From contig CACXAG010000001.1 in assembly GCA_902765585.1 (NCBI GenBank), positions 1 through 58,669 on the forward strand: 58,669 bases of DNA, read 5' to 3'. The translations under genes and the position numbers were made by a program. Positions 20,071-58,669 of the stretch are shown piece after piece; position 1 is the stretch's first letter; every line of letters starts with the position of its first letter. Below the pieces are notes generated by a model. The model did no database searches. It saw nothing but the letters and a program-made list of their open reading frames with translations, and had not been told where the DNA came from. This stretch comes from an uncultured Prevotellaceae bacterium. GTDB lineage: Bacteria > Bacteroidota > Bacteroidia > Bacteroidales > Bacteroidaceae.

Positions 20071-20103
20071 AAGATGAAAAATGAAAATCTTTAATTTTCG
20101 ATT
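20071..20103 (+). repeat. Microrepeat between parA and parB
   Basis: AAATGAAAGATG, AAAAATGAAAATC and TTTAATTTTCG occupy the gap up to the parB ATG. Confidence 0.6.
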
Positions 20104-21778: not shown

Positions 21779-21824
21779 GAATTTAAAAATTGAAAAATTG
21801 AAGAATTGAAATAGAAAAAGGACA
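21779..21824 (+). repeat. Microrepeat (AAAATTGAAGAATTG class)
   Basis: The gap is AATTTAAAAATTGAAAAATTG and AAGAATTGAAATAG units. A near-identical stretch fills 53119-53160, between susC and susD. Confidence 0.7.
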
Positions 21825-39194: not shown

Positions 39195-40337
39195 TCAGAG
39201 CGCTATCTCGCCACTGCCGTAGCAACGGTGGTGGCGATTGTCATAGACCACGCAGAACTGCCCTGGGGCGACGCCGTGGATGGGGGCGGCAGCGTGTACC
39301 AAGTACTCGCCCTCGGTGTCCGTAGCCTCTATCTGTGCGGGCAGAAACTCTGGCGTGTGGCGAATCTTGATGGTGACGTTATGAGAGGTGAGCGGTGAGC
39401 GGTCAGAGGTCAGAGAGTTGCCTAAGCAGTCCTCCAGCGGGAGTGTCAGGGCATGGAAGTCGCGGATGCGGAAGTGCTGGCAGTAGGCAGTCTCTGGGTC
39501 GTAGCCGTGGGAGACGTAGATGATGTTCTGCGCAATGTCCTTCCTGATGACAAACCACGGGCCGCCGCCCAGTCCCATGCCTTTGCGCTGGCCGATGGTG
39601 TGGAACCAGTGACCCTTGTGCTGGCCGACGATGCGCCCCGTCTCCAGTTCCACCACGTCGCCGGGCAATTCGCCCAGGTAGCGGCGCAGGTAGTCGTTGT
39701 AGTTGATCTTGCCCAAGAAACAGATGCCCTGCGAGTCGCGGCGGTGAGCCGGTGCCAGATGCTCGCGCTCAGCAATGGCGCGCACCTCGTCTTTCATCAT
39801 GTGACCAATGGGAAACAGCGCCTTCTGCAACTGCCAGTCGTATATCTGTGCCAGGAAGTCCGTTTGGTCCTTCACTGGGTCGGGACTCGTGCAAAGCCAG
39901 GATATTTGACCATTTGACAATTGGTCGTTTCCGATTTCCTCAACTTCCTTTTGAGCATAGTGGCCCGTGGCGATGACGTCGTAGTCGTGGCCGCGCTTCT
40001 CGTGGAAGGCACCGAACTTGATGAGGCGGTTGCACATCACGTCGGGATTGGGCGTCAGCCCCGCCCGCACCTTGTCCATCGTGTACGTCGTCACCTGCTC
40101 CCAGTATTCGCGGTGGCAGTCTACCACCTCCAGCCTACAGCCGTACTTGTGGCTGACGGCTGTTGCCATCTCCAAGTCCTCCTCGCTGGAGCAGTCCCAC
40201 TCCTCCTCTTCCTCAGGACCTATCTTAATATAGAAGCAGTCCGGCTGCAGCCCCTGGCGGACCAGTTCGTAGAGCACCACACTGGAGTCCACGCCGCCCG
40301 AGAGCAGCACCGCTATGCGCTTGTCTTTTTCTGTCAT
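39195..40337 (-). CDS. mnmA: tRNA 2-thiouridylase MnmA
   Basis: From ATG at 40337 the protein has 380 residues. It starts MTEKDKRIAVLLSGGVDSSV (PP-loop), then NPDVMCNRLIKFG (first Cys), ATGHYA, DSQGICFLGK (second catalytic Cys), HTIGQRKGMGLGGGPWFV and a C-terminal beta-barrel. It adds sulfur to U34 of tRNA-Gln(UUG), Glu and Lys. Two segments look inserted: NDQLSNGQIS after ATGHYA, and NSLTSDRSPLTSHN in the C-terminal domain. Both are encoded by microrepeats found between genes elsewhere. The longer upstream frame crosses the promoter and was rejected. Confidence 0.93.
   Translation of the reverse strand: MTEKDKRIAVLLSGGVDSSVVLYELVRQGLQPDCFYIKIGPEEEEEWDCSSEEDLEMATAVSHKYGCRLEVVDCHREYWEQVTTYTMDKVRAGLTPNPDVMCNRLIKFGAFHEKRGHDYDVIATGHYAQKEVEEIGNDQLSNGQISWLCTSPDPVKDQTDFLAQIYDWQLQKALFPIGHMMKDEVRAIAEREHLAPAHRRDSQGICFLGKINYNDYLRRYLGELPGDVVELETGRIVGQHKGHWFHTIGQRKGMGLGGGPWFVIRKDIAQNIIYVSHGYDPETAYCQHFRIRDFHALTLPLEDCLGNSLTSDRSPLTSHNVTIKIRHTPEFLPAQIEATDTEGEYLVHAAAPIHGVAPGQFCVVYDNRHHRCYGSGEIAL
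39383..39416 (-). repeat. GAGGTGAGCGGTGAG microrepeat inside mnmA
   Basis: GAGGTGAGCGGTGAG followed by CGGTCAGAGGTCAGAG encodes, on the minus strand, LTSDRSPLTSH in the C-terminal domain. A related stretch encodes residues 40-49 of GlmM (6391-6417). Confidence 0.6.
39903..39922 (-). repeat. AATTGTCAAAT-GGTCAAATA microrepeat inside mnmA
   Basis: The 20 bp match the intergenic copies at 45081-45100 and 57028-57047 at all but one or two positions. They encode QLSNGQI in a loop of MnmA. Confidence 0.8.
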
Positions 40338-40366
40338 GGATGTCTGTTTTTTTACCTGTTCGACTG

Positions 40367-40398
40367 CAAAGATAATCTTTTTTATGCTTTTTCGCAAA
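40367..40398 (-). promoter_or_regulatory. mnmA promoter
   Basis: On the minus strand TTTG (40398-40395), 20 bp, TATCTTTG (40374-40367). It is back to back with the tRNA-Gln promoter, with 15 bp between the two -33 boxes. Confidence 0.8.
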
Positions 40399-40413
40399 AA
40401 AGTTCTTGTTTTT

Positions 40414-40445
40414 TTTGGTGGATTGCTAAAAAAGCACTACCTTTG
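40414..40445 (+). promoter_or_regulatory. tRNA-Gln promoter
   Basis: TTTG (40414-40417), 20 bp, TACCTTTG (40438-40445), 37 bp before the mature tRNA 5' end. Confidence 0.8.
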
Positions 40446-40482
40446 CACCCGCAAAACGAAAAAGAGACGGTTTGCAAGACAT

Positions 40483-40553
40483 TGGGGTATGGTGTAATGG
40501 TAACACTGCAGATTCTGGTCCTGCCTTTCCTGGTTCGAGTCCGGGTACCCCAA
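40483..40553 (+). tRNA. tRNA-Gln (anticodon CTG)
   Basis: The 71 nt fold as a cloverleaf: acceptor TGGGGTA/TACCCCA, D stem GTGT/ACAC, anticodon loop TTCTGGT with CTG at 40515-40517, T stem CCTGG/CCGGG around TTCGAGT, and discriminator A. CCA is not encoded. The first acceptor base T is typical of tRNA-Gln. The anticodon stem GCAGA/CCTGC has an A-C mismatch at the pair next to the loop (31-39). It is a single-tRNA transcript with its own promoter and terminator. Confidence 0.93.
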
Positions 40554-40555
40554 CA

Positions 40556-40601
40556 AAAGAATCCGCTAAGTCGCTGACGTTCAGTGCTTAGCGGATTCTT
40601 T
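40556..40601 (+). terminator. Terminator of tRNA-Gln
   Basis: AAAGAATCCGCTAAG (40556-40570) pairs perfectly with CTTAGCGGATTCTTT (40587-40601), a 15 bp stem, with a small CTGA/TCAG stem in the loop. A CATTCTTTACTTTTC tail follows. Confidence 0.85.
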
Positions 40602-40655
40602 CATTCTTTACTTTTCACTCTTCACCTCGCTCACAGGGCAATCGGTCCCCAAAAG

Positions 40656-40743
40656 ACGAGATTACGGCTCACCTTCGACGAGATTACGGCTCACCTTCGA
40701 CGAGATTACGGCTCGCCCTCAACGAGATTACGGCTCACCCTTA
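40656..40743 (+). repeat. Four 22-bp tandem repeats
   Basis: Units beginning ACGAGATTACGGCTC start at 40656, 40678, 40700 and 40722, exactly 22 bp apart. Units 1 and 2 are identical; units 3 and 4 differ at a few positions in the second half. The array lies between the tRNA terminator and the promoter of the DUF4251 gene and codes for nothing evident. Confidence 0.9.
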
Positions 40744-40765
40744 ATGTAAGAAAAATCTGAATATA

Positions 40766-40797
40766 TTTGTTGTTCTCAATTTTAATGTGTACCTTTG
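40766..40797 (+). promoter_or_regulatory. Promoter of DUF4251-like gene and downstream operon
   Basis: TTTG (40766-40769), 20 bp, TACCTTTG (40790-40797), 27 bp before the ATG. It begins 22 bp after the tandem repeat array. Confidence 0.8.
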
Positions 40798-40824
40798 CAT
40801 CCAATCAATAATTAAAAACAGGAT

Positions 40825-41334
40825 ATGAAAAAGGTAATCATCATGTTGATGGCTGTGCTGCTGGTGGCAGCATGTGCTACTCTTACGCCCGAAGAGAAAG
40901 CTGCACGCGAGGCAGCTGTCAAGGAATATGTCAAGGAGGCTGTGATAAAACAGGAGTACAAGATTAACATCAGTTCGATGAGGCCGATGCGCGGCATGGA
41001 ACGCTCTGTCAGTGGTCCATGGCTGAAGGTGGACAGCACCACGGTGGAATGCTGGCTGCCATACGCTGGTCTTGACGACGTGCCACACCTGAAGACCCGT
41101 TCTGAGGTCCGTCAGGGTTCGAAGATTGAGATCAAGTCTCAGATGAGGGACTATGTGACTGGCATCGACCCTACGGAGGAGCGCGCCGTCATCACGTTCA
41201 ATGCCGACGATCACGGATTTAAATGTAAGTTCACCATCACCATTGAGAATACGGGTAAAGCCCGAATCCACTACGAGCCCGAAGGCCGCGACTATATAGA
41301 CTACGAGGGGAGCATGGTTATCAATAAACAATAA
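40825..41334 (+). CDS. DUF4251-like lipoprotein
   Basis: The 169-residue protein has a lipoprotein signal with a VAAC lipobox (Cys17), a charged helix (EEKAAREAAVKEYVKEAV) and then a beta-rich body (YKINISSMRPMRG, LKVDSTTVECWLPYAG). This is the layout of DUF4251 proteins found across Bacteroidales. The function is unknown. It has a strong promoter and may head the alpha-glucan operon, separated only by a microrepeat from the GH13 gene. Confidence 0.75.
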   Translation: MKKVIIMLMAVLLVAACATLTPEEKAAREAAVKEYVKEAVIKQEYKINISSMRPMRGMERSVSGPWLKVDSTTVECWLPYAGLDDVPHLKTRSEVRQGSKIEIKSQMRDYVTGIDPTEERAVITFNADDHGFKCKFTITIENTGKARIHYEPEGRDYIDYEGSMVINKQ

Positions 41335-41399
41335 ACGTGAACCAGTAAACAATAAACGTGAACCAATAACCAATAAACGTGAAACAATAAACATTGAAA
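41335..41399 (+). repeat. Microrepeat (AATAAACGTGAACC class)
   Basis: The 65 bp gap consists of repeated GTGAACCAATAA and CAATAAACGTGAA units. The same units occur at 42564-42629, in frame in the regulator (48026-48088) and inverted in its signal sequence (46721-46765). Confidence 0.85.
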
Positions 41400-42563
41400 A
41401 TGATGGAACAGAATAAAGCTTTATGGTTTGACGAGATCCGTATCTATCATTTGCTGATTGACAGATTCAACGGAGGGTGGCAAACGCCGCCAAGGAATGA
41501 GAAAGGACGTCTGGACTCCATGAACGTCTTTTGCGGAGGAAACTTACAGGGCGTCATCGAGAAACTGGACTATATCAAGCAGCTGGGCTTCAATGCCGTG
41601 ATGCTGTCGCCAATCTTTGCGTCGGCCAACTATCACGGCTACCACACGCTGAACTTCGACGAGGTGGACCCGCATATCGGCACGTGGGCGGACTACCAGC
41701 AGCTGCTGGACACGACGCACGAGAAGGGGATGAAGATTATCTGCGACTTCGTGCCCAACCATTGCTGGTATGAGGCGCCGATGTTTCAGGAGTCGCTGCT
41801 GAAAAACGGCGGCAAGCACCGCGACTGGTTCTTCTACAAGAGCGCGGACCGCGACGAGTTTGTCACCTTCTTAGGCTTCGGCGACCTGCCGAAGTTCAAT
41901 CTGACGAACCCCGAGGTGGCTGGTTTCATGATTGACAAGGCCGAGCGGCTTGTCCGCATGGGTGTGGATGCCTTCCGCATCGACCATGCGCTGGGTCAGC
42001 CGCACAGTTTCCTGCAGCAGTTCCGCCAGGCTGTGCAGGCCGTTCGCAGCGACATCGTCGTGTTTGGCGAGGTGTGGCCTTTCGGCATTGGTCCGCAGTT
42101 GGCCAGCCAGCTGTACTTCAAAACGCCGGAACGGCTGAACGAGTTTCTGGCTCAGGACACGAAGCCCTTTAGCCAGGAGAGCGTGCAGACCGACTATGTG
42201 GGAACGCTGGACGGCGTGCTGGACTTTGCCTATCGCGACATTCTGCTGGAGGAGGTGCATGCAGGCCGCGGCATCAAGGGCAACGCGACGCTGAAGCGCA
42301 AGGTGGAGGAACACTTCGCCAAGTATCCCGAGGACTTCAAGTTGGTGCTGTTCTTGGACAACCACGATACCAACCGCTTTCTGTTCGACTGTCACGACGA
42401 CGCGACGCTGTTGCAGGAGGCCATTGAGTTTACGAAGGCTCTGCCGCATCCGTTCTCGTTCCTCTATGGTACGGAGCAGTTGATGACCAACAATCCTTCT
42501 ATCTTCAATGCCGAACCGTATGCCGACCTGCGCGTGCGCAAATGCATGGAGTGGAAACAATAA
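41400..42563 (+). CDS. GH13 alpha-amylase family protein
   Basis: From ATG 41400 the protein has 387 residues, short for GH13: a single barrel with no C-terminal beta domain and no signal peptide, so probably cytoplasmic. Conserved regions are CDFVPNH (region I), GVDAFRIDHA (nucleophile Asp195), VVFGEVWP (acid Glu224) and FLDNHDTNRF (Asp323). The start MMEQNK was chosen over TTG 41394. It probably acts on malto-oligosaccharides or glycogen; specificity is not readable. It belongs to the operon with the debranching-type enzyme. Confidence 0.85.
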   Translation: MMEQNKALWFDEIRIYHLLIDRFNGGWQTPPRNEKGRLDSMNVFCGGNLQGVIEKLDYIKQLGFNAVMLSPIFASANYHGYHTLNFDEVDPHIGTWADYQQLLDTTHEKGMKIICDFVPNHCWYEAPMFQESLLKNGGKHRDWFFYKSADRDEFVTFLGFGDLPKFNLTNPEVAGFMIDKAERLVRMGVDAFRIDHALGQPHSFLQQFRQAVQAVRSDIVVFGEVWPFGIGPQLASQLYFKTPERLNEFLAQDTKPFSQESVQTDYVGTLDGVLDFAYRDILLEEVHAGRGIKGNATLKRKVEEHFAKYPEDFKLVLFLDNHDTNRFLFDCHDDATLLQEAIEFTKALPHPFSFLYGTEQLMTNNPSIFNAEPYADLRVRKCMEWKQ

Positions 42564-42629
42564 ACAATAACCAATAAACGTTAAACAATAAACGTGAACC
42601 AATAACCAATAAACGTTGAACATTAAACG
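42564..42629 (+). repeat. Microrepeat (AATAAACGTGAACC class)
   Basis: Repeated CAATAACCAATAAACG and GTGAACCAATAACC units fill the gap up to the STAS gene ATG. Confidence 0.85.
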
Positions 42630-42897
42630 ATGGATATTGAAACTTACAAATTAGGTGAAAAGTTGGACTCTTTCAACTACCAGGAAGTACAAGACGCTAT
42701 TCTGGCCATTCTGGAGAAAGACTCCAGTGTGGAGCTGGACATGACGGCGTGCAACTACGTCTCGAGTTCGGGTTTGCGCGTGTTGCTCTATACCAAGAAG
42801 GTGGCTGCCGCCAAGGGACTGAAGGTCTGTCTGAAGGGCGTGGGTGCCGAGGTGCAGGACATCATGGCCGTCACCGGTTTCGATAAATTCTTCGATT

Positions 42898-42905
<8 letters not shown>
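42630..42905 (+). CDS. STAS-domain anti-sigma factor antagonist-like protein
   Basis: The 91-residue protein is a single STAS domain. LDSFNYQEVQDAILAIL, VELDMTACNYVSSSGLRVLLYTKK and VQDIMAVTGFDKFFDYA match SpoIIAA/RsbV. The phosphorylatable Ser is probably Ser46 in VSSSGL, although the Asp normally before it is Ser here. Such proteins bind a kinase/anti-sigma ATPase depending on phosphorylation. A fitting ATPase is encoded at 45105 in the same operon. Its end overlaps the next gene by 8 bp. Confidence 0.85.
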
Positions 42906-45006
<2,101 letters not shown>

Positions 45007-45104
45007 AAAAGATGAAAAATTAAAAATGAAAGATGAAAGATTAAGATTAAAAATGGGAGAATTGAAATAGTCAAATAGTAAATTGTCAAATAGTCAAATA
45101 AACG
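45007..45104 (+). repeat. Compound microrepeat region
   Basis: Two classes lie side by side: AAAGATGAAAAATTAAAAATG units (45007-45060), then TCAAATAGTAAATTGTC units (45066-45100). The second class recurs at 57028-57047 and inside mnmA. Confidence 0.8.
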
Positions 45105-45518
45105 TTGAGTGAGTTGCATTTTCAGTCCGTTAAGGGGAGGTCCCGCGAGATTCTCAAGGCCATCCTTCAGACGCCCGAGGTATCCTCGTGCGACAGGAAG
45201 ACTGTCTTGCTGCTCCGCCTGGTCTGCGAGGAAATCGTCATGAACATCACGTCCTACGCCTATCCCGACGGCTCTGACGGTTTCTTGGACGTGGACGTCG
45301 AGGCACATGCCGACCGCCTGGTCATCCGTTTCAGCGATGGCGGCGTGCCCTTCAACCCCCTGGAGCAGCCGCCGCCCGACACTAAACTGTCGTGGCAGCT
45401 GCGCCACATCGGTGGACTGGGCATCTTTCTCGTCCTCAAAAAGATGGATGCCGTCCGCTACGCTTACGTAGACCACAAGAACGTGCTAACCGTAGAGAAA
45501 ATGAAAGATGAAAAATGA
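45105..45518 (+). CDS. Anti-sigma regulatory ATPase (RsbW/SpoIIAB-like)
   Basis: The 137-residue GHKL ATPase has an N box (LVCEEIVMNITSYAYP), a G1 box (IRFSDGGVPFNP) and a G2 box (HIGGLGIFLVLKKMD). No other domain is present, the layout of RsbW/SpoIIAB serine kinases. These bind a sigma factor or other partner and are released by STAS antagonists such as the one at 42630. The start is TTG 45105 (MSELHFQ), inside the end of the microrepeat; no ATG fits. No PP2C phosphatase or sigma factor is encoded in the window. Confidence 0.85.
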   Translation: MSELHFQSVKGRSREILKAILQTPEVSSCDRKTVLLLRLVCEEIVMNITSYAYPDGSDGFLDVDVEAHADRLVIRFSDGGVPFNPLEQPPPDTKLSWQLRHIGGLGIFLVLKKMDAVRYAYVDHKNVLTVEKMKDEK

Positions 45519-45564
45519 AAGATGAAAAATTATACATTATCCATTATCAATTATCAATTAGCGT
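45519..45564 (+). repeat. Microrepeat before the SGNH gene
   Basis: AATGAAAGATGAAAAATT, then ACATTATCCATTATC and AATTATCAATTA. Confidence 0.65.
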
Positions 45565-46710
45565 ATGCGCAATGACATGAAGTGGGTGGCTTGTTGGGGA
45601 AACGCCACCAGCATCACCAACCGCCGTGAGGCCGTCTATGCCAAGGACCTCACGCTGCGCTACCCCGTCCGCATGCCGTTCAGCGGCAGCCAACTGCGTT
45701 TCCGTTTTTCTAATCTCACGGGCACCGAACCCGTCACCCTCGCCAAGGTCTTTGTCGGCCACGTCCCCATAACCTTTGCTGGCGAGGTCGGCGTAACCCT
45801 CATGCCCGGCACCGAGACGGAGAGCGACGCCGTCAGCTATCCCGTACACCGGGGCGATACCATCGAGGTCAGCTTCTATCTGGCTGGTTTCACGCAGATG
45901 AACAGCGGCACCCTCGTCACCGGTCCGCTCTCCAAGGGCTACTATGCCTACGGCGACTATGCCGAGGCCGACGAGCTGCCTCTTGACCTCAGCCGCCATA
46001 CCAACTGGTTCTACTTCCTGAACACCATCGACGTGCTGACGTCGGCCGACAACCATGCCGTGGTCTGCTATGGCGACTCCATCACCGCCCAGTCGTGGCC
46101 CGACTACATGGCGCAGCTGGCCTTCGGCTCCCATGTCGCCGTCATCCGCCGCGCCGTCAGCGGCACCCGCATCCTCCGGCAGTACGACTGCATCACCTAT
46201 CAGGCCTACGGTCTGAAGGGCGCCACCCGCTTCCCCGTAGAGATGCGTGTTGCAGGAGCTACCGACGTCATCATCCAGCACGGCATCAACGACATCATCC
46301 ACCCCGTGGGCGAGGATGTCAACCCCTTCCGTCCGTGGAGCGACCTGCCTACCGTCCAGGAGCTGGAGCACGGCGTGGAGGACATCTATGTCAAGCCCGC
46401 CAAGGCCATGGGCCTGAAGGTGTGGAGCGGCACCCTGCTGCCTATCTTCGGCTGGCGTACCTATAATGAGGAGCGCGACCAGATGCGGCAGGCGTTTAAC
46501 CAGTGGCTGCGCACGTCGCCCATCTTCGACGGCTGCATCGACTTCGACGCCGCCGTGCGCAGCATCACCAATCCCAAGGCCTTTGCCGACGGCTTTGACA
46601 GCGGCGACCACCTGCACCCCAGCGAGCGGGCCTACGAGGCCATGGCACAGGCTGCCGCCCACAAGCTGATACGCCACATACCGCGCTATGATCACGAAGA
46701 GCTGTTTTAA
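45565..46710 (+). CDS. SGNH/GDSL hydrolase family protein
   Basis: The 381-residue protein has an N-terminal beta-sandwich (residues 1-150: MPFSGSQLRFRFSNLTG) and an SGNH hydrolase domain with CYGDSITAQSWP (catalytic Ser), RRAVSGTRIL (Gly block), IIQHGINDIIHP (Asn block) and SGDHLHPSERAY (Asp, His). No signal peptide is seen, so it is probably cytoplasmic. It may remove acetyl or other acyl groups from oligosaccharides after import; the substrate is unknown. The regulator's first possible start lies inside its last codons. Confidence 0.85.
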   Translation: MRNDMKWVACWGNATSITNRREAVYAKDLTLRYPVRMPFSGSQLRFRFSNLTGTEPVTLAKVFVGHVPITFAGEVGVTLMPGTETESDAVSYPVHRGDTIEVSFYLAGFTQMNSGTLVTGPLSKGYYAYGDYAEADELPLDLSRHTNWFYFLNTIDVLTSADNHAVVCYGDSITAQSWPDYMAQLAFGSHVAVIRRAVSGTRILRQYDCITYQAYGLKGATRFPVEMRVAGATDVIIQHGINDIIHPVGEDVNPFRPWSDLPTVQELEHGVEDIYVKPAKAMGLKVWSGTLLPIFGWRTYNEERDQMRQAFNQWLRTSPIFDGCIDFDAAVRSITNPKAFADGFDSGDHLHPSERAYEAMAQAAAHKLIRHIPRYDHEELF

Positions 46711-49700
46711 AATTTGGTTCATGTTTAATGGTTCACGGTTATTGTTTATTGTTTCATGTTTAATGCTGGCCGTTGTTGCCGGTTGGTCGCAGACGTCGCT
46801 GCTGGAGCGTTATAACGTCACCAGCCTCGACCTGTCCTCCGGCCTGCCCCACAACAATGTCAACGACATCTTCGTGGACAGTCGCGGCTTTGTCTGGGTG
46901 TCCAGCTATGGCGGTGGTGCCGTGCGCTACGACGGCTATAGCTTTCTCGCTCCGCGCCTGACGCCCCGCAGCGGCAGCATCAGCAACTCTTGCAAGGGCT
47001 TTGCCGAAGACCGTCACCAGCGCCTGTGGATAGCCTACGACGAGGGCGTGCTGGTGTTGGACATGCGTACCATGGACCGTATCACCCCTGCCTACCGCGA
47101 TGGTGATATCAGCCGTTGGCTGATGCGCGAGTCCGTCAAGGTTTACTGCGACAGCAAGGGCGGCTTGTGGCATGTGGCACGCGACAGCATCTTCCGCTAT
47201 ACCTTCGACGCCGACGGCCGTGTCAGCCACATCAGCCGTTGCCGCTATCTCGGCAATACCCCCGACATCCATTTGCGCGACATCGACCAGAACGGCACCG
47301 TATGGGTCAATGTCGACGGCGGCCTCTATCGCCTGTGCGATGTCGGTGGCCGGCTGGAACGCCGCGAGATAGCTCCTGCCATGCAGCAGTTCAGGGGACT
47401 CTACGTCACCGACATGCTGAAGCGCGACAACGACGTGTGGATATCCACCAACCAGGGACTCTACGCCTACAACCTGTATAACAGCACGCTGCGCAGCTAC
47501 CGCCATACATCAGACGCCCACTCGCTGTCGCACGACTATGCCACGTCGTTAGCTGTGACGACAGACGGACGCCTGCTGGTAGGCACACTGCGCGGACTCT
47601 GCGCCTTCCGCGACCAGACAGGCGACTTCCTGTGCTGGAACTCTTCCACGCCTGGTTGTCCCATGCCCAGCGACTTTGTGCACTGCCTGCTGACATACGG
47701 TCATCAGCTGTGGATAGGCACTGAGACCGCCGGCATCATCAAGCTGTCGCCAAAGTCCCTGCTGCTGCGCAATTATGTCGCCAGGCAGGGTGACGCCTCG
47801 TCGCTGTCGCCTGGTCCCGTCAATGCCATGTATGTCGAGCCCGACGGCACGCTGTGGGTCGGCACTGTGGAAGGAGGACTGAACCGCCGTCTGCCTGACG
47901 GCCGTTTCGAGCACTGGACGACGCATAACTCCAGGCTGTCGCATAACTCCGTGTCCGTGCTGGAACCTGACAGCCACGGGAACCTCTGGATTGGCACCTG
48001 GGGCGGGGGAGTGAATGTATTGTATAATAACCGTGAACCAATAAACAATAACCGTGAACCAATAAACAATAACCGTGAACCAATAAAGATTGTCCCCCTG
48101 TCGTTGTCGGCAGACATGGCCGGACTGACTAACTATATCGGTTCGCTGGCCTACGACCGTTGGCACGATGTGCTGTGGATAGGTTCCAACGATGGTGTAT
48201 TCCTCTACGACCTACAGACTGGCCGCCTGGAGGACCCCATTGCCGGCAACCGTGATATCCGTGGCTGCATAGGTGCCCATATCGATCACGACGGACATTT
48301 GTGGATGGGCAGCCTGACGGGCGTCTGCGTCATCGACCTCCGCAGCGGGCGCGGTGCCGACGGCAAGTTCAAGAGCCGGCGCCTGCGTCAGAAGCTCGAC
48401 CAGCCGCAGTCGCCCGTGGTGGACAAGATTACGTGTTTCTACGAGACCAAGGACGGCACGCTGTGGATAGGCAGCAGCGGCTACGGCCTCTACCGCCGTG
48501 TCGTCGACGAACAAGGACAGGAGCACTTTGAGGCCCTGACTACGGACGACGGTCTGGCCAACAATGCCGTCAAGGGCATCGTCGAGGACGGTCAGGGGCG
48601 CCTGTGGATAACCACCAACAACGGCCTGTCGATATTCGACCCTCACGCGCGTACCTTTATTAATTATAGTGAACGTGAGGGACTGGTATGCCAGCGCTTC
48701 TACTGGAACTCTGCCCAAAGGGGGCCTGACGGTGCTATCTACTTAGGAAGCATTGAGGGGCTGACCGAGGTTCGCGGCGAGAACAGGGATGCCATGCATG
48801 ACGTTCACCTGACCTTTACGAAGCTGCTGGTGGACAACCAGGAGGTGACGGCAACCAATGGCTCCGTGCTCGATGCCGACATCTCGCAGGCGTCGTGCAT
48901 CAGGCTGCATGAGTCCAACAAGTCGTTTACCATCAGCTTCTCTACGCTGACCTACGAGGGTAGTGTGCAGGGGCAATATAGCTACCGGCTGAAGGGCTTT
49001 GAAGACGACTGGACGCTGTTGAAGCCTGGCGAGCATTCCGTGCGCTACACCAGTCTGAAGCCAGGCACCTATACTTTTGAAGTGATGTATGCAGAGGATG
49101 ATGGCAACCACAGCCAGACCATCAGCATCGACGTGATGGTGACGCCTTACTTTTGGAAGAGCTGGTGGTTCATCGTGCTGGTCGTGCTGTTGATGGCTGC
49201 CGTCGCGGTGTGGTTCTTCCGCCGCCGCGTGGAGACGCTGCGCCGCCAGGAAGCCGAGAAGCTGTTGCTGCCCATCCGCAAGGTGTTGGACGACTCCGAC
49301 GACCCGGAGCAGTTGCTGTCGCGCATAGAAACCATCCTTGACAGTCATCAGCAGTTGAAGAAGAGTTTCCACCGCACGGTGGAAGCCGACAAGCAGGAGA
49401 CCAAGGACAAGAACAGGACGCTTGTGGAGCGTGCCACGGAGGTGCTGGAACAACACTATATGAACAGCGAGTTTGGTGTTACCGAGTTTGCCGAGGCATT
49501 AGGTATGAGCCGCAGCCTGCTCTCGAAGCGCTTGAATGCCGACACGGGACTGAGTACGGGGCAGTTTATCCGCAACTACCGCTTGTCGGTAGCCAGAAAA
49601 CTGCTGTTGGAAAACATGGCCAACCGTAACATTACGGAAATAGCCTACAAGGTAGGTTTCAACGACCCGAAGTATTTCACCCGCTGTTTCACCCGCCAGT

Positions 49701-49738: not shown

Positions 49739-49740
49739 GC

Positions 49741-49858
49741 AGGTGGACGAAACGGCAGAAAATGCAATAAAAATGGTGTGAAAACAGCTGATATTTCATT
49801 TTGTCCACCATATTTCTCGTTTTGTCCACCTCTTACGCGCATAAAATCTTTAATTTTG
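49741..49858 (+). promoter_or_regulatory. susC promoter with candidate AraC-type operator
   Basis: TTTTGTCCACC occurs at 49799-49809 and 49820-49830 (21 bp apart, same face of the helix). AGGTGGACGAAACG (49741-49754) is an inverted copy matching CGTTTTGTCCACCT (49818-49831) at 13 of 14 positions. TAATTTTG (49851-49858) is the -7 box; no TTTG lies at the right -33 distance, as expected for an activator-dependent promoter. The susC ATG is at 49897. Confidence 0.65.
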
Positions 49859-49896
49859 CAACAAATTTTTCACTATTAACTAAAACAAATAATAAA

Positions 49897-52800: not shown

Positions 52801-53118
52801 ATCTCCGGCGTGCCCCGCACCTATCTGTCCAATTCTGCCTCATTAGCATGGAATGACCTCTTCAGCAGCCGTCAGATTCAGAATGCCGCCTACTGGAAGA
52901 TTGCCAACATCGAGCTGGGCTGCAACCTGCCCAACAAGTGGTTCGGCAATTATGTCTCCGGCGTCCGTGTCTATGTGTCGGCACAGAACCTGCTGACCAT
53001 CACTGGCTACAAGGGTTACAACGTAGACTACGCCGGCGGTACCTTCACCCCGGGCTACAACTACTGCTCTTACCCCACTCCGACGAGCTTTATGGCAGGT
53101 CTTAACTTTACTTTTTAA
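49897..53118 (+). CDS. susC: SusC/RagA-type TonB-dependent outer-membrane transporter
   Basis: From ATG 49897 the protein has 1073 residues. After the signal peptide (ends AMAS) comes a carboxypeptidase-regulatory-like module (residues about 30-115: KVSGQVVDQGGEPLIGATVKVKG), a TonB box/plug region (LEQVVVVGYGVQKKADLTGSVS, VRIRGIGSFGSTAPLYVIDGVP, LKDASAGAIYGSRAANGVVIITTK) and a 22-strand barrel ending in GLNFTF. It imports oligosaccharides using TonB energy with the SusD lipoprotein as lid. An upstream in-frame extension overlaps the promoter and was rejected. Confidence 0.96.
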   Translation: MRKQALFSVMLMLGVGGGIAFSPVPAMASVAQQTIKVSGQVVDQGGEPLIGATVKVKGATSGSITDFDGNFSMDVAPDATLVISYVGYKDREFAVRGRSVLGQIQLDSDDNVLEQVVVVGYGVQKKADLTGSVSIVNADELKRVAHSNISSMLEGKVAGVQITSDGQPGADPTVRIRGIGSFGSTAPLYVIDGVPMGTTIRDFSPNDIETIQVLKDASAGAIYGSRAANGVVIITTKGGKKDQPLKVDYKGYFGMDKVSNNKYDLMNADQYSNYLGIAAANSGTPLPGGYSLGEDGKYHFRDNTDTDWFKESFKTGTRMNHNVNLSGGGANNTYNIGLDFYNQKGTVEGAGPDFKRYTVRVNNTMDAKFIKFRTGLVYSHSDQNVMSIGNDDPYIQGLYGNLGNVLRGVLGMQPTIKAYDESTWVLDDVVGSASGWKYDAYGYGVYYDTVHGDISAMNPLLVNNLLTRKTIVDRFVGTASADVDLLDMIGVKSDNHKLTYKLNLSYSTTSANDRTWIPAWIQSNRVYLAKENERLNKDHRKYTDALIENTLTYDGTIAKHHINLVVGQTYEEEHTTELHGWAVNLNEPYYLQLQNAKDTYSSSNEYKHTLASYLARLNYDFDGKYLISGIVRRDGSSRLSPDKRWDTFASVSAGWRFDKEAFFPIDRDIVNMFKLRASYGELGYEAAVGDYAIQATMLRNNMTYSFDNQPVTGSAVSNFVNQNLQWEKRKTMNVGLDLAFFNNRIEFTAEWYKNKSEDLLYNVPVPAHAGVANTTVTMNAASIENSGFEFSATYRNRDHALKHEISANLSTLKNKVTSLGFGTEKYITGSYITEVGEEVGKFYGWDYQGIIRTQAQLDDLNAIAQANGHDEYQAGAQVGDCYYKDVNGDGQVNGDDQTVLGSGLPSVNFGLSAHLEWKFLDLSISTYGALGYHVSDFLYNTLNSSYGYGNHDVAVLGANKWSEDGLTYISGVPRTYLSNSASLAWNDLFSSRQIQNAAYWKIANIELGCNLPNKWFGNYVSGVRVYVSAQNLLTITGYKGYNVDYAGGTFTPGYNYCSYPTPTSFMAGLNFTF

Positions 53119-53178
53119 GAATTGAAGAATTGAAAAGTTGAAGAATTGAAAAAGTAAAATAGTAAAAAGAATCAAAAT
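53119..53178 (+). repeat. Microrepeat (GAAGAATTGAAAA class) between susC and susD
   Basis: GAATTGAAGAATTGAAAAG and TTGAAGAATTGAAAAAG, then GTAAAATAGTAAAAAG. It matches 21779-21824 and the leader at 5514-5543. Confidence 0.75.
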
Positions 53179-54981
53179 ATGAAACTACATAATATTTCCT
53201 TAGCGCTCCTGTTGGGTATCGGCACACTGACGTCGTGCGACAGCAAGTTGGACGTGACGAACCCCAACCAGCAGACAGCAGCCACCTTCGGCTACTCTGC
53301 CGATGAATTGGAGGAATGCATTATCGCCTGCTACAACCATATTCGTATGGAGGGCACCTACGCCCGTGTGGGTTATATGCTTGACGTATGCCGTGGTGAC
53401 GAGGTATGGAACTCGTCGCAGGTATGGTATATGCCCTTCGACGACCTGAATGTGGCCTTCACCGACGAAATCGGCCAGTGGTCGTGGCGTGACTGGTACT
53501 ACACCATCAATGTTTGTAACTTTGTGCTGTCCCAGTTTGTCGAAGGCGGCGAGGAACTGCCCGAAGCCTTCGCCCGTGCCAAGGGACAGGCCCTGTTCCT
53601 TCGCGGTTTGGCCTATTACAACCTGGCAGGCTACTACCAGAACCCCCTCCTAATTACCAACTATGAGACCTACAGCACACTCGACGGCCTCTATGGAAGC
53701 AACTATGAGCCTGGGGACACTGATGGCAATGCCCAGTATGACCGTGTCTGGGACCAGGTGGAGGAGGACTTCGCCGGGGCCATCTCGCTGCTGCCCTCGC
53801 GTGATGCAGGCGGCCAGTGGGCCAAGGGTCGTGCCACCTGCGGTGCTGCCGCCGGCTACTATGCCCGTGCCCTGATGATGCGCCACAAGTATAGCGAGGC
53901 GCTCGACGTGCTGAAGTCTATCATTGCTGGTCAGTATGGTCACTACGAGCTGATGGCCAACTATGGCGACAACTTCCGCGAGGGTTCTGCCTACGAGAAC
54001 AACGCTGAGAGCCTGTTCGAGGTACAGTATCTGGACTATGGCACGCAGGGTGTCGACGACGAGTGGACGCCTGTGAACACCAGCCCCAATGCCACGCAGG
54101 GTAACGCCATCGAGAGTAACTTCGGTCCTGGCGACTGCGGCGGTTGGGCCGACCTGTCGGCATCGCCCTGGCTCTACAACCTGTTCAAGGCTGAGCGCAC
54201 CACCAGCGGTTCGCTGGACCCCCGCCTCTATTGGACCATCGGCACCTACGAGCCCGAATGGGAAGGCTTTGAGTACGGCAACCAGTGCTACAAGGTGACG
54301 CAGACCGACGACTGGGGCAACCCCGACATCCCCCTGGTTACCAACAACAACTACGGTGGACTGCCCGTGGCTAAGAACACCAACCTGCGCACAGGACTCT
54401 ACGAGAAGGTGGTTACGGGTCTGCACAACGGCATCAACCTGCGCATGATGCGCTACTCCGACGTGCTGCTGCGTGCCGCAGAGTGCGAGAACGAGGTGAA
54501 CGGTCCTACGCAGCAGGCTATCGACTGGATCAACCAGGTGCGCAACCGTGCAGGGCTGGCCAGCCTGAATCTGGCTAACTTCAGCTCGAAGGACAAGCTC
54601 TTCGAGCAGATTGCCAACGTGGAGCGCCCGAAGGAGTTCGGCTGTGAGTTCGGCCGTGGCTTCGACCTGCTGCGCTGGGGCTTCTTCTACAATGGCGACC
54701 GCCTGCGCCAGCTGAAGGACCATGCCGCCGTCAACTTCTGGACGAAGGCTAACTACAACAATGGTACGTATAACTACACGCCGAAGGACAAGGTGCAGTA
54801 TAGTAACTGCAGCAAGAGCTCGTATGACACATGGACGAAGGGCCATGAGTTCTTCCCCATCTATCAGGGTACGCTGAACGACAACCCCAACCTGGTGGGT
54901 AACTCGGCTAACAACAGTACTGACAACGCTACCTATTTCGAGGCACATGGCTGGACGGTACATCCTGTGGTGAACCTCTGA
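53179..54981 (+). CDS. susD: SusD/RagB-type glycan-binding lipoprotein
   Basis: The 600-residue lipoprotein (LTSC, lipid Cys20) has the SusD layout: N-terminal TPR-like helices (GQALFLRGLAYYNLAGYYQNP, ATCGAAAGYYARALMM) and a C-terminal RagB/SusD domain (NLRMMRYSDVLLRAAECENEV, INQVRNRAGL, VERPKEFGCEFGRGFDLLRWG). It captures oligosaccharides at the surface and hands them to SusC. Spacing from susC is 60 bp, filled by a microrepeat. Confidence 0.95.
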   Translation: MKLHNISLALLLGIGTLTSCDSKLDVTNPNQQTAATFGYSADELEECIIACYNHIRMEGTYARVGYMLDVCRGDEVWNSSQVWYMPFDDLNVAFTDEIGQWSWRDWYYTINVCNFVLSQFVEGGEELPEAFARAKGQALFLRGLAYYNLAGYYQNPLLITNYETYSTLDGLYGSNYEPGDTDGNAQYDRVWDQVEEDFAGAISLLPSRDAGGQWAKGRATCGAAAGYYARALMMRHKYSEALDVLKSIIAGQYGHYELMANYGDNFREGSAYENNAESLFEVQYLDYGTQGVDDEWTPVNTSPNATQGNAIESNFGPGDCGGWADLSASPWLYNLFKAERTTSGSLDPRLYWTIGTYEPEWEGFEYGNQCYKVTQTDDWGNPDIPLVTNNNYGGLPVAKNTNLRTGLYEKVVTGLHNGINLRMMRYSDVLLRAAECENEVNGPTQQAIDWINQVRNRAGLASLNLANFSSKDKLFEQIANVERPKEFGCEFGRGFDLLRWGFFYNGDRLRQLKDHAAVNFWTKANYNNGTYNYTPKDKVQYSNCSKSSYDTWTKGHEFFPIYQGTLNDNPNLVGNSANNSTDNATYFEAHGWTVHPVVNL

Positions 54982-55032
54982 GAAGATGAAAAATGAAAGA
55001 TGAAAAATGAAAAATTAAATAGAATAAAAGCT
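54982..55032 (+). repeat. Microrepeat before the SusE-like gene
   Basis: AAGATGAAAAATGAAAGATG and AAAAATGAAAAATTAAATAG. It contains an in-frame ATG (55000) that is probably not the start. Confidence 0.7.
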
Positions 55033-57000
55033 ATGAAACTATATCGTAAAATTGCAACTACCGTCTGTGCAGCAGCCCTGGGCATGCTGGCACTGACGAG
55101 CTGTGAGGGCGGTGACCTGTACGGGCTCAATGCTCCGGACTGGCTGTCGGCCAAGGCTGACTCCATCGCTGCTGCCAAGGCAGCCAACCAGGGTGGTGAC
55201 GAAGAGATAGAGGGCCTGCACGAGGACGTCTATACCGTCGGAGCCACGGACTATTCTACGGGCTGGTGGGCCGTGTTCTCGAAGTACTACCAGATTCCCG
55301 AGGGTGCCAAGTGGGTGGCTCAGTTCAACCTGAACATCAACCCCGCCGTTACGAATACCTATAAGAACTTCGTGCTCATCATCACCAACGACGAGGATCG
55401 TGGTGCTGCCGACTACAAGGAGTATGGTGCCATCCGCTACGACTACCAGCCCAGCGGCAACTCCGAGTGGGGCGACTACATCGACCGCAGTCTGGCCACG
55501 AGTACGCTGGAGTTCCAGACGGACACGGACGCTGGCGTCGACAAGCTGGGCGGCAAGGTGACGCTGACCGTCGACCGCAGCGAGGGTGGCCTGCTGGTGA
55601 CCATGAACAACGGTACGGTGGTGAAGACCTATACGCAGAAGTCGCCCCTTGTGAACCTGAATGCCGACCCCTCGAACAAGGAAATCCGCTGTTTCCTGGT
55701 GCCTGAGGGTTCGTACATCAACTTCCTGGGCAGCACCATCGAGCCCATCGGCGGCTTCACGTCGGCTGAGGACAAGGAGCCTGTGGCTCTGGAACTGTCT
55801 GGCGTTCCTACCGAGGTACTGGTGGGCACGACCTTAGAGGAGGCCATGGCCAACGTCACGGGTAAGGTGACCTTCGCCAACCTGCCCGCTCCTAAGGAGG
55901 TGACGGCCGAAGACCTCATCTTCGAGTCGGTTCCGAGCATGGACGAGATAGGACAGAAGATACTCGTCGTCATGTACAACAAGACCTTCAAGGGCTCCCT
56001 TGCCACCAAGCCTGTCATTGCCGTCAAGACCTTCAACGTGGTGAACGAGCTCTCTGCATTCACCGAGACCGTTGTCGTGCCCTCGCCTGCGGTGCTGGGC
56101 GCTGAGGACAACTCGTCTGGCTGGTGGAGCGAGCATACCCAGAACATCAAGGTGGCACCGAAGGAGACTAAGGTGGTCAACTTCACCAACTACACCTCGG
56201 GAGCCAACAACTGGAACAACTTCGTCATCGTGCTCAACAAGGCCAACCTGGCTGAGTATGCCGTGGTGCGTGCCGACAACTACGGCTGGGGCGACGGCTA
56301 CGCTGCCTGCAAACCCGCTATGGAGGATGGCCGCGAGTGGGCTACCTGGCTGGCTGCCATGAACGGTGCCAGGGTGACGGCCTACATCACCAACAACGGT
56401 GACGGCACGGCTGACGTCAAGGCTATCATGTACGGCACGGACGGCAACGTCTATACCCAGGAGTATATCGGCATCAACACCGTCGATCCTGACGACTTCT
56501 ACTTCCGCTTCACCCTCGACGGCTGCCACATGGCATTCGACAAGGAGCTGGGTGCGCCCGACTGCTCGACGGGCTGGTGGCAGGTCTTCACGCAGAACGT
56601 GAAGGTGGATGCTCACCAGGTGTGCACCGTCAACTTCACCAACTACGGAAGCGGCGCCAACAACTGGAACAACTTCGTGCTCATCATGAACAAGGAGAAT
56701 GTGGCTACGGAGTATGCCGTGGTGCGTGCCGACAACTACGGCTGGGGCGACGGCTACGCTGCCTGCAAGCCGGTGATGGAAGAAGGCCGCAACTGGGACG
56801 TGTGGCGTGCTGCCATGATTGGTGCCAAGGTGACGCTGACCATCAACAACAAGGGCGACGGCACCGTTGACGTGACGGCAGCTATGCAGGGCAACGACGG
56901 TAACGTCTATACCCAGCAGTACCTGGGCATCAACACCATCGACCCCGACGACTTCTACTTCCGCTTCACCGTGGACAGCAGCTACTTAGTATTTGAGTAA
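55033..57000 (+). CDS. SusE-like surface lipoprotein with three related binding modules
   Basis: From ATG 55033 the 655-residue lipoprotein (LTSC, Cys24) carries three related modules. Each begins STGWW or SSGWW and contains F-x-x-NY-or-N-x-N and NFV-x-I. Modules 2 (about 355-500) and 3 (about 505-655) are highly alike: NNWNNFV, EYAVVRADNYGWGDGYAACKP, GNVYTQ and DPDDFYFRFT. Module 1 (about 70-240) is diverged, and a linker region (about 250-345) separates it. Clustered Trp/Tyr suggest carbohydrate binding. Its position after susD is that of SusE/SusF-type surface glycan-binding proteins. The module family was not identified. Confidence 0.8.
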   Translation: MKLYRKIATTVCAAALGMLALTSCEGGDLYGLNAPDWLSAKADSIAAAKAANQGGDEEIEGLHEDVYTVGATDYSTGWWAVFSKYYQIPEGAKWVAQFNLNINPAVTNTYKNFVLIITNDEDRGAADYKEYGAIRYDYQPSGNSEWGDYIDRSLATSTLEFQTDTDAGVDKLGGKVTLTVDRSEGGLLVTMNNGTVVKTYTQKSPLVNLNADPSNKEIRCFLVPEGSYINFLGSTIEPIGGFTSAEDKEPVALELSGVPTEVLVGTTLEEAMANVTGKVTFANLPAPKEVTAEDLIFESVPSMDEIGQKILVVMYNKTFKGSLATKPVIAVKTFNVVNELSAFTETVVVPSPAVLGAEDNSSGWWSEHTQNIKVAPKETKVVNFTNYTSGANNWNNFVIVLNKANLAEYAVVRADNYGWGDGYAACKPAMEDGREWATWLAAMNGARVTAYITNNGDGTADVKAIMYGTDGNVYTQEYIGINTVDPDDFYFRFTLDGCHMAFDKELGAPDCSTGWWQVFTQNVKVDAHQVCTVNFTNYGSGANNWNNFVLIMNKENVATEYAVVRADNYGWGDGYAACKPVMEEGRNWDVWRAAMIGAKVTLTINNKGDGTVDVTAAMQGNDGNVYTQQYLGINTIDPDDFYFRFTVDSSYLVFE

Positions 57001-57044
57001 CGTTGAACGTTGAACATTGAACATTGAAATTGTCAAATAGTCAA
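57001..57044 (+). repeat. Compound microrepeat overlapping the GH43 start codon
   Basis: CGTTGAACGTTGAACATTG units are followed by AATTGTCAAATAG-TCAAATG (57028-57047), whose last three bases are the GH43 ATG. Confidence 0.8.
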
Positions 57045-58669
57045 ATGAACGTTAAGTATTTTCTTTGCATCATCTCCGCAGGTCTGCTTCTGGCAGCCTG
57101 TGGGGGCGATGATGCCGACGATGGCGGCGGCAGCGTCTCTACTGCCGTGACGGTGACCACCCCCGTGGTGACGGTCACCTCGTCAAGTTCCGCCCAGGTG
57201 CATGCCGTGACAGCCGGTTCTGGCATCGTCAGCCGTGGCGTGTGCTACGGCACCTCAGCCAATCCTGACATCAACGGCAGCAAGGTGACGTCCTCGTCGG
57301 CTACCATCGACGTGACGCTTTCCAGTCTCACGGCCAGCACCACCTACCACGTCCGTGCCTACGCCCAGACCAGCAAGGAGGTGAAGTACTCGGCTGATGT
57401 GACGTTCACCACCACCAGCGACGGGACGAAGCCCGACGAGGGACAGGAAGAACAGGATGAGCAGCAGACGGAATGGCCCTCGGCCCTGAAGCGCGTCGCC
57501 GTCCACGACCCCAGCGTCGTCTGGGACCCCTCCACCAGCAACTACTACATCTTCGGTTCGCATCGTGCTGCCGCACGCTCCACCAACCTCATGACGTGGG
57601 TGTCGTTCACGGCACCGTGGGCAACGGCCAACAACACCAATGCCGCCAACAATGTAGCCTTCACCACCCCGCAGGTGACGAAGGTGAAGAAGGGCGGCCA
57701 GGAGGTTGACTTTGCGTTCAACGCCCTGGCGTGGTCGAAGCGCGGCAATGCCTCCTATTCGGTCGACGGCAACATGTGGGCACCCGATGTCATCTACAAT
57801 AAGCAGATGCAGAAGTGGTGCATGTACCTCAGCATCAATGGCGACAATTGGTACTCCAGCATCATCATGCTCACGGCCGACAAGATTACGGGTCCCTATC
57901 GCTATCAGGCTCCTGTGGTCATCAGCGGCTTCCATACCGGCAATGCCTACAAGGATACTGACTTAGAGATTGTTTTGGGTGCTCAGAGTTCGCTGCCCAC
58001 CCGCTATGCCGTGGGCAACAAGTGGGGCAACCGCTATCCCAACTGCATCGACCCCTGCGTGTTCTACGACGAGACGGGCCGACTGTGGATGTCGTACGGC
58101 TCATGGAGTGGCGGCATCTGGATGCTCGAACTCGACGAGGCTACGGGCCTGCGCGACTATGACGTCACCTATACCCTGACGGGCAGTGGCGACGGCGTCA
58201 CCGTCGACCCCTACTACGGCAAGAAGATAGCCGGAGGCTACTACGTGTCGGGTGAGGCCAGCTACATCGAGTACATCGGCGGCTACTACTTCCTCTTCAT
58301 GAGCTACGGCGGTCTGGCTGCCGGCGGCAATGCCTCTGACTACAACAATGGCGGCTACCAGATGCGCGTGTTCCGTTCGCAGCAGCCCGACGGGCCCTAT
58401 GTCGATGCCAAGAACTCTTCAGCCGTCTTCAACAGCTATCTGCTCAACTTCGGTGCCAAGGAGAGCGACGGCAACCGCGGCGTCAACATCTTTGGCGCTT
58501 ACGGCGAGTGGGGCAATCAGGCCGTTGGCAACAACAGCGAGCGCTCGCAGGGCCACAACAGCATCATCGCTGCCGAGGACGGGCGTACGTATCTGGTCTA
58601 TCATACCCGTTTCCAGAACCGTGGCGAGGAGCACGAGGTGCGCGTCCACCAGGTGTTCCAGAACGAGGA
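57045..58669 (+). CDS. GH43 arabinanase-like lipoprotein (3' end beyond window)
   Basis: The frame is open from ATG 57045 to the edge (541 codons, no stop). A lipoprotein signal (LLLAAC, Cys19) is followed by an FN3-like module (about 35-130: GIVSRGVCYGTSANPDING) and a GH43 five-bladed propeller. RVAVHDPSVVWD holds the base Asp155, NMWAPDVIYN and CIDPCVFYDETG the pKa-modulating Asp, and YVSGEASYIEYIG the acid Glu404; GHNSIIAAEDGRTYLVYHTR carries the metal His. It resembles endo-arabinanases of GH43. It probably cuts arabinan side chains of pectin at the cell surface; exact specificity is inferred. Confidence 0.85.
   Translation, partial: MNVKYFLCIISAGLLLAACGGDDADDGGGSVSTAVTVTTPVVTVTSSSSAQVHAVTAGSGIVSRGVCYGTSANPDINGSKVTSSSATIDVTLSSLTASTTYHVRAYAQTSKEVKYSADVTFTTTSDGTKPDEGQEEQDEQQTEWPSALKRVAVHDPSVVWDPSTSNYYIFGSHRAAARSTNLMTWVSFTAPWATANNTNAANNVAFTTPQVTKVKKGGQEVDFAFNALAWSKRGNASYSVDGNMWAPDVIYNKQMQKWCMYLSINGDNWYSSIIMLTADKITGPYRYQAPVVISGFHTGNAYKDTDLEIVLGAQSSLPTRYAVGNKWGNRYPNCIDPCVFYDETGRLWMSYGSWSGGIWMLELDEATGLRDYDVTYTLTGSGDGVTVDPYYGKKIAGGYYVSGEASYIEYIGGYYFLFMSYGGLAAGGNASDYNNGGYQMRVFRSQQPDGPYVDAKNSSAVFNSYLLNFGAKESDGNRGVNIFGAYGEWGNQAVGNNSERSQGHNSIIAAEDGRTYLVYHTRFQNRGEEHEVRVHQVFQNE

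Follow-up and report, generated by a model that had tools for sequence, protein, structure and literature searches.

How does one short sequence come to lie both between genes and, in frame, inside a conserved enzyme? The question is raised by a 58,669-nucleotide stretch of DNA from an uncultured Prevotellaceae bacterium (hereafter the window, meaning the whole stretch analysed), which is contig C1 of a 3.19-Mb genome (G000) assembled in 286 contigs and 84% complete. Its mnmA gene for tRNA 2-thiouridine synthase (39195..40397, reverse strand; NCBIfam NF001138, 326.3 bits against a cut-off of 284; PDB 2der) hosts two loop inserts, and a preliminary description of the window had reported that a 20-mer in the first of them (39903-39922) recurs between genes at 45081-45100 and 57028-57047. 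These positions are correct, the intergenic copies having one and two differences in 20 bases from that in mnmA. We suggest that such microrepeats are probably short elements built of heptamers, in some cases octamers, which differ in unit between species, are copied non-autonomously, are resized by slippage and are filtered for reading frame.

Seven- and eight-base arrays in gaps and genes

When the window was compared with itself at shifts of 4 to 12, 12 self-matching stretches were found at shift 7, three at shift 8 and none at the other shifts. Tandem Repeats Finder (TRF) likewise resolved many of the gaps into heptamers (ATGAAAG, ATTAAAC, AAATAAG, AACATTG, CAATAAA) and others into the octamer units AAATAGTC, AATTGAAA, AAGAATTG and TTTTACCT, with higher-order units of 14 and 21 nt present among the arrays. 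The unit classes of the preliminary description, in gaps and genes alike, are therefore tandem arrays, degenerate in sequence, that repeat every 7 or 8 bases; they are real and more widespread than had been noted, and the period itself had been missed.

The 20-mer in mnmA loop 1 (39903..39922, reverse strand) consists of GTCAAATR octamer units (2.4 copies by TRF), encodes NDQLSNGQIS and lies within an eight-residue insert, whose 24 nt are the length of three octamers. Its intergenic copies are contained in an octamer array of AAATAGTC at 45065..45100 (TRF score 58; forward strand, as are the other heptamer and octamer repeats of the window unless marked otherwise), which adjoins a heptamer array of AAAGATG/AAAAATG at 45008..45055 (TRF), and in a further AAATAGTC unit at 57027..57047 (TRF); an intergenic heptamer array of GAACGTT/GAACATT is present at 56999..57032 (self-match scan and TRF). 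The second mnmA insert, which had been grouped with a segment of a GlmM loop, is a period-7 array of CTCACCT/CTGACCT type (39382..39416, reverse strand) that encodes SLTSDRSPLTSH and shares its family with the arms of the hairpin described below. The GlmM half of that pairing fared worse: the GAGGTGA heptamer stretch at 6391..6420 is weak (TRF 4.3 copies, 72% match, score 30) and the loop varies in length among relatives anyway, though the nearest of them (L194, 87% identical) lacks the stretch, and we do not retain it as an example.

Such units are far more frequent than base composition would predict. The 19-mer AATTGTCAAATRGTCAAAT, with at most one mismatch, matches the genome 19 times, 10 of them on the forward and 9 on the reverse strand, and its reversed pattern never. 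Arrays were then counted with TRF at a score of at least 45. In a 411.7-kb sample of the same genome (46.8 kb intergenic and 364.9 kb coding by a simple open reading frame caller), period 7 was the commonest, with 40 intergenic and 27 coding arrays, followed among intergenic arrays by 22 nt (13) and 8 nt (10). Nine loci of this sample (L122-L130) were picked by matches to the 19-mer; the other 11 (220 kb), picked blind to such matches, hold 18 intergenic and 13 coding period-7 arrays, and the window alone nine and one. Eighty mnmA loci of relatives, titled mostly Prevotella or Prevotellaceae and many of them from rumen metagenome-assembled genomes, gave 29 and 31, while nine stretches (180 kb) from a further five members of the genus gave one and none, and eleven stretches from other families of the order (208 kb) gave none of either kind. 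Among the genomes sampled, then, the trait is found in only part of the genus. Dinucleotide shuffles (one of a whole locus, ten intergenic) contained no period-7 array, and together with the reversed-pattern controls and the samples from other families they rule out chance or base composition as the origin of tandem 7-nt units, which stand far above chance level.

The units themselves are tied to particular genomes, as judged by overlapping matches, of which a single array gives several. Across 60 genomes, three consecutive GATGAAA units with at most three mismatches matched 251 times in G000, 156 in G009, 67 in G014 and 25 in G022, and 14 times or fewer in 55 others; G008, with 26 matches, is not counted as rich because its control (38) exceeds that number. 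The variants GATGTAA, GATGGAA and GTTGAAA appear in several other genomes among the matches listed. Three CTCACCT units with at most two mismatches were found 191 times in G000 (control 2), 193 in G063, 122 in G062 and 109 in G064, and 0 to 87 times in nine further genomes (reversed controls 0-12). CATCACC reached 211 in G067, the mnmA gene of which carries that unit, with 4 and 1 matches in two other genomes and none in nine of 11, and CTCAACT reached 175 in G065, 76 in G066 and 25 in G061, with none in G000 and 1 to 14 in the rest; for this last unit the reversed pattern belongs to the same family and is invalid as a control. CTCACCT matches were oddly unequal (0 and 30) in the metagenome-assembled genomes of L036 and L037, perhaps through a binning fault.

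Members of a family vary mainly at one to three of the seven positions, and this variation is common to several loci, as in TTT[C/A]AT[C/T/G] and GTTCAA[C/T/A], and blocks of two units recur at several loci. Such shared variable positions would not obviously result from the independent decay of separately born arrays. Neither the difference in families between species nor the hairpin and its recurring peptide, to which we now turn, had been noted in the preliminary description.

A hairpin element with a recurring peptide

Coding arrays of the AGAGGTG family at times occur as inverted pairs. The pattern GGTRAGAGAN{12,42}TCTCTYACC was found at 28 places in six of eight genomes (nine in G000), its reversed control at none. 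Four places with a core identical to another were counted once, leaving 24 distinct copies, which still include near-identical orthologues or paralogues from the sister genomes G062 and G063. The element consists of two inverted arms, mostly of four heptamers each, that flank a partly conserved spacer, for a total length of mostly 88 or 102 nt. The spacer measures 22 nt in seven copies and 36 nt in five, and its length is 1 modulo 7 in 14 of the 24 (p = 7e-7 if copies were independent, which they are not). Folding of the distinct copies gave -14 to -57 kcal/mol, most of them forming a single long hairpin.

The preliminary description held that coding copies keep the frame, and 19 of the 24 indeed lie inside open frames of at least 150 codons. 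Among the 17 of these that were read, the right arm gives SLTSHLSPLTS or nearly so in 14. The spacer also encodes a recurring peptide: of the seven copies with a 22-nt spacer, five of those read give D/E-Y-x-Q-x-x-N/D (DYSQPQN-like), L245 matches a peptide of this kind by translated search and L246 is non-coding. The hosts include, by family search or solved homologues, phosphoglycerate mutase, Mfd, an RsmF-type methyltransferase, a sugar transporter, a sodium:solute symporter, CTP synthase and MutY; and by eye, proteins resembling asparagine synthase, ABC-F proteins, ATPases and nonribosomal peptide synthetases. The copies in Mfd and the RsmF-type protein are located between Pfam domains, and in L233 and L237 the 36-nt form stands at an apparent gene start with a signal-peptide reading.

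Six-frame reading of nine copies showed that all five non-coding ones are stopped in every frame, while in three of the four coding ones the coding frame alone is open, L250 having a second open frame. The coding frame is opened by a single altered heptamer (GGTRA to GGCAA or GGTCA). When the CTP-synthase protein served as the query of a translated search, seven further places in three genomes matched it in the insert peptide alone, and one of these contains a stop. NCBIfam, which includes models of the Rickettsia palindromic element (RPE), gave no family match to three element peptides at an E-value of 1.

Full, lone-arm and empty sites

CTP synthase (PyrG) was found in 15 of 17 genomes, and the 15 loops show the same orthologous site in different states: the full element in G067 and G066, a lone right arm with the inner TATT in G000, a purine-rich arm-like stretch in G069, and none of these in 11. 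Against the structure of a homologue (PDB 9kao), residues 132-163 of the query stand opposite five residues. The G067 protein (L250) also carries a second in-frame insert, ENSSLFTLHSSL, which is heptamer-like, adjoins an RHRHRYE motif and corresponds to an 11-residue gap in PDB 9kao. In phosphoglycerate mutase the element is present in G000 and absent from four relatives read.

In mnmA, for which the nearest relative on the tree path is L031 (Prevotella sp. Tb.RUG.460), loop 1 records many such changes. The insert of the window faces a gap of eight to nine residues in 26 of 26 relatives (three of 29, read on the wrong strand, were left out), and among the 80 loci the loop is empty (39-42 nt) in 42 and longer in 38, in keeping with the preliminary description's view of this segment as an insert. 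The longer loops contain about six AACGTTC units (L035), AGCCAAA units (L036, L037, L048), ACAATGC (L064), GAGCAAG with an inverted copy (L052) or, by eye in 18 rows including the window, AAATTGTC-type units. GC-rich palindromes of CCTCCCC..GGGGAGG type occupy the loop in frame in eight rows by eye (L032, L040, L049, L054, L057, L058, L061 and L092), and the site is therefore used by at least two kinds of repeat. Automatic thresholds classed 39 loop-1 inserts as 11 heptamer, one octamer, five palindromic and 22 other, and 1409 control windows elsewhere in mnmA as 12, none and 24 of the first three kinds. Loop 2 holds heptamer arrays in six of 28 long rows, including the window, and in L049 an inserted GGGGACAGTCCCC palindrome.

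On an mnmA tree built without the loops, in which few branches are strongly supported, the nine insert types require at least 31 changes, where 8 is the minimum and shuffles average 36.1, with 1 of 200 as low as the real tree. Insert absence requires 14, against an average of 27.2 in 500 shuffles, none of which is as low. Inserts are thus restricted to certain clades and their content turns over fast. L048 and L057, for example, are 92.5% identical over 3.9 kb with wholly different loops 1, and L063, 84-85% identical to both, has an empty one. L036 and L037 (99.1% identical) share the same mnmA insert, and a 76-nt palindromic insertion elsewhere is present in just one of them. The unit found in mnmA is also present elsewhere in the sample of its own genome for six of 10 genome-unit pairs (small samples from nine genomes), and the AACGTTC and AAGTTCA units of mnmA match arrays in G000 (8 of 93 and 11 of 93).

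The most probable account of these sites starts from the AGAGGTR/YACCTCT family in G000, the complete form of which is the hairpin with two inverted arms of about four heptamers and a spacer. Non-autonomous copying would bring the element to new sites, both between and within genes; arms would then grow, shrink or be lost through slippage in steps of 7 nt; and selection would retain genic copies only where they are free of stops, keep the frame and fall in loops, domain linkers or signal peptides. Arrays that stand alone in a protein, as in MnmA, may at least partly be leftovers of one arm, and most lone arrays may derive from hairpins. The earlier proposal that units are copied or expanded at many loci is thus borne out in part, by the occurrence of the same families in gaps and genes and by the empty sites.

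Several observations weigh against this account. The window itself lacks a full element; the right arm is read in another frame in three of 17 coding copies (L119, L240, L251); and the left arm has no uniform frame, giving EVRGERxEVR or GERxEVRGER according to spacer length. An inverted partner within 100 nt accompanies just 18 of 183 period-7 arrays (10%, against 5 of 549 control flanks; for period-8 arrays, 5 of 31 against 0 of 93), which leaves a hairpin origin conjectural for most. At the PyrG junctions a few bases are replaced and there is no clean cut; no target-site duplication was seen by eye in comparison with empty sites and no partner transposase was found, neither having been searched for systematically. 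Under the strict thresholds only 17 of the 39 loop-1 inserts are heptamer, octamer or palindrome, and that of the window falls just short (13 of 18 at shift 8). Four of the 10 mnmA units have no match in their own genome samples (AACGTTC 0 of 17, ACAATGC 0 of 4, AAGTTCA 0 of 12, and CTCTCAC in G071 0 of 1). Arrays do not clearly turn over between G003 and G026, an array-poor pair that carries little information and is 95% identical over 40 kb aligned. An octamer array in an unaligned stretch of G026 has no counterpart called in G003, and the alignment has six gaps of at least 5 nt, including 23 and 50 nt (GC-rich palindromic repeats) and 26 nt (a CT run). The G026 stretch differs in length from G003 at position 12360, in a run of CT dinucleotides, and at position 12109, in a palindromic repeat rich in GC.

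The main rival account is that polymerase slippage acts locally and alone, expanding chance seeds in place with no copying between sites, and that coding copies survive where they are in frame. Slippage in steps of seven bases was proposed by Mrazek et al. (2007; via PMC4679880 and PMC4692102), and it would fit the dominance of period 7, as in other genomes rich in such repeats, the large majority of single, unpaired arrays and the higher-order units. It does not readily account for a single unit that gives hundreds of overlapping matches at many loci of one genome and seldom or never matches the neighbouring genomes, for variable positions common to separate loci, for inverted pairs spaced by 22 or 36 nt with a recurrent DYSQPQN-like spacer peptide in unrelated genes, or for the absence of arrays from the other families sampled. 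The unit families that span a genome and the spacers that recur suggest that slippage does not act alone, and we regard this explanation as rather unlikely. Slippage would then resize elements that were copied to their sites by other means. It is quite possible, though somewhat less likely than not, that rumen Prevotella still actively copy heptamer-armed hairpins in a lineage-specific manner, each species with its own unit, and that a coding-competent variant in genes has been writing new loops, linkers and whole signal peptides.

Gene starts, other mechanisms and related elements

Arrays also lie at gene starts, and their signal-peptide-like readings had been overlooked. A heptamer array of AAATAAG at 14586..14615 lies immediately 5' of a start codon, and its inverted partner of TTTATTA units at 14671..14702 (TRF; 86-90% complementary over 21 nt) encodes the hydrophobic core of an N-terminus, GLLFIIFCFLFSPVRAQ, that resembles a signal peptide; inverted partners straddle the start in L123 as well. 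Similarly, an intergenic octamer array of AATTGAAA at 21780..21811 is followed at 21877..21910 by one of TTTTACCT that forms the core of the signal-peptide-like N-terminus VLPFYLFTFLPLAASAQ (both by self-match scan and TRF). Arrays of ATGAAAG at 6231..6276 and of ATGAAAA at 54983..55012, each found by both methods, reach the start codon of glmM and lead into another. In gaps between co-directional genes, the sense strand is the purine-rich one in 37 cases against 6 (p = 1.6e-6). Eighteen arrays fall within the first 35 codons of a frame, and 12 of them, in six of 11 sampled genomes, are signal-peptide-like by eye.

These regularities would be expected if the arrays were selected sequence and not selfish repeats, that is, convergent A-rich leaders, gene-end hairpins and hydrophobic signal-peptide codons; to our knowledge, Bacteroidota lack strong Shine-Dalgarno sites. 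Selection of this kind leaves unexplained why units differ between species, why arrays lie in loops of MnmA, PyrG and the RsmF-type protein, and why relatives are free of arrays, and we consider it improbable as the origin of the repeats.

If, as we prefer, hairpins are copied non-autonomously, a REPIN/RAYT-type or other Y1-transposase system might move them in trans. REP and REPIN elements are short dispersed palindromes with RAYT transposases and lack heptamer arms. The Prevotella element resembles them in its hairpin form and dispersal, and two Y1_Tnp (PF01797) matches in the genome exceed the cut-off. The longer of the two genes, a 266-residue frame in L131, is flanked by inverted TGCCACGGACCTGTCCC (by eye) without heptamer arms, the other lies at a contig end, and no Y1_Tnp gene was found beside the heptamer hairpins. 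With no link found between these genes and the hairpins, mobilisation by RAYT was rejected, and a Y1 system of any type has little probability in our estimation. The L131 gene (1105-1896) is RAYT-like. Templated synthesis by a telomerase-like reverse transcriptase of the DRT10 type, a known maker of tandem-repeat DNA (PMC12632851), is very improbable given the many different units per genome and the lack of any RVT_1 match at an E-value of 0.001 in our assembly, which is 84% complete.

The remaining arrays of the window are of the same kinds. Those found by both self-match scan and TRF are ATTAAAC between genes (11593..11635), TGTTTCA in a gap of convergent genes (16490..16518), AAAAATG at a gene junction (20056..20087) and the adjoining AAAATGA and AATTATC (45498..45560); those found by TRF are CAATAAA heptamers as a 21-nt higher-order repeat (41322..41393), AAACAAT (42555..42614) and the intergenic octamer array of AAGAATTG (53122..53152). 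At 48026..48087 three copies (3.0 by TRF) of a 21-nt repeat, three heptamers each, encode NNREPI three times within a large protein that has AraC-type similarity at its C-terminus, its family matches lying below the cut-off. Repeats of other periods are also present: a 22-nt tandem repeat of GACGAGATTACGGCTCACCTTC (40655-40739; 3.9 copies, 93%) between a tRNA-Gln gene and the next gene, an intergenic 22-nt repeat on the palindrome GAACATATGTTC (26530-26586) and a 15-nt repeat of TGTTACACAAGTTTG (28216-28264; 3.2 copies) at the start of an open reading frame. An Rfam search of the window and five loci matched tRNA only.

The preliminary description knew of no named element with this behaviour, a statement that is not supported in that form, since in-frame insertion is known of RPE, and inverted pairs of heptamer arrays have been described in Xanthomonas. 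In the portions of the literature drawn on here and below, RPE (Ogata et al., 2000, via PMC2229807 and PMC10969869) are hairpins of 105-146 bp that form in-frame fusions in 19 genes, with guanylate kinase tested (PMC2229807); papers on in-frame coding palindromes in Wolbachia and Methanocaldococcus are cited there, and a 2024 review considers an RPE-like process conceivable in other prokaryotes (PMC10969869). Like RPE, the Prevotella element is a small, non-autonomous palindrome with a stem-loop and a recurring peptide, found in gaps and in frame in unrelated conserved proteins (PMC2229807, PMC10969869). It differs in its phylum, its length (mostly 88 or 102 nt), its arms of heptamer arrays, its signal-peptide readings, its species-differing families and its abundant lone arms. 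It works like RPE and is not a member of that family.

The Xanthomonas GGGAATC heptamers form arrays that mostly have four units, in which positions 1-4 and 6 are conserved, and inverted pairs number 70 and 75; they are dispersed about equally on both strands, and long arrays are not shared by close relatives (PMC4692102). The Nostoc G-rich heptamer repeat is GGGGA(T/C)T (PMC4692102). The Xanthomonas arrays resemble ours as degenerate, dispersed heptamers and in their inverted pairs, but as described there they are G-rich and 89-93% intergenic, whereas those of Prevotella are purine- or AT-rich, often genic and in frame, and differ between species (PMC4692102). TAACTGA repeats of Beggiatoaceae, Cyanobacteria and some Bacteroidetes likewise often lie immediately 5' of start codons and sometimes in open reading frames, a few in conserved enzymes near their ends, but have one fixed unit across distant taxa, and the cited text describes no hairpin or recurring loop site for them (PMC4679880). 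The BrickBuilt miniature inverted-repeat transposable element (MITE) of Porphyromonas gingivalis, of the same order, also places a tandem repeat inside a miniature inverted-repeat element, with 23-nt units, always intergenic and in 19 copies in the described strain (PMC4596501). The arms of about four heptamers give the Prevotella element terminal inverted repeats of MITE type. No paper on such repeats in Prevotella was found among openly licensed PMC papers, which does not prove that none exists. The Prevotella case combines the descriptions of RPE and of the Xanthomonas heptamers.

Until now, in-frame coding palindromes were an oddity known from Rickettsia and a few other organisms, and related behaviour is now seen in many rumen Prevotella, where a dispersed repeat repeatedly becomes new pieces of protein in ordinary enzymes and signal peptides. 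This would account for odd linkers and signal peptides in Prevotella annotations. It can now be tested why a seven-base period recurs in unrelated bacteria and whether dispersed repeats yield usable protein segments. If copying is indeed active, it would provide these organisms with a steady supply of novelty in conserved proteins.

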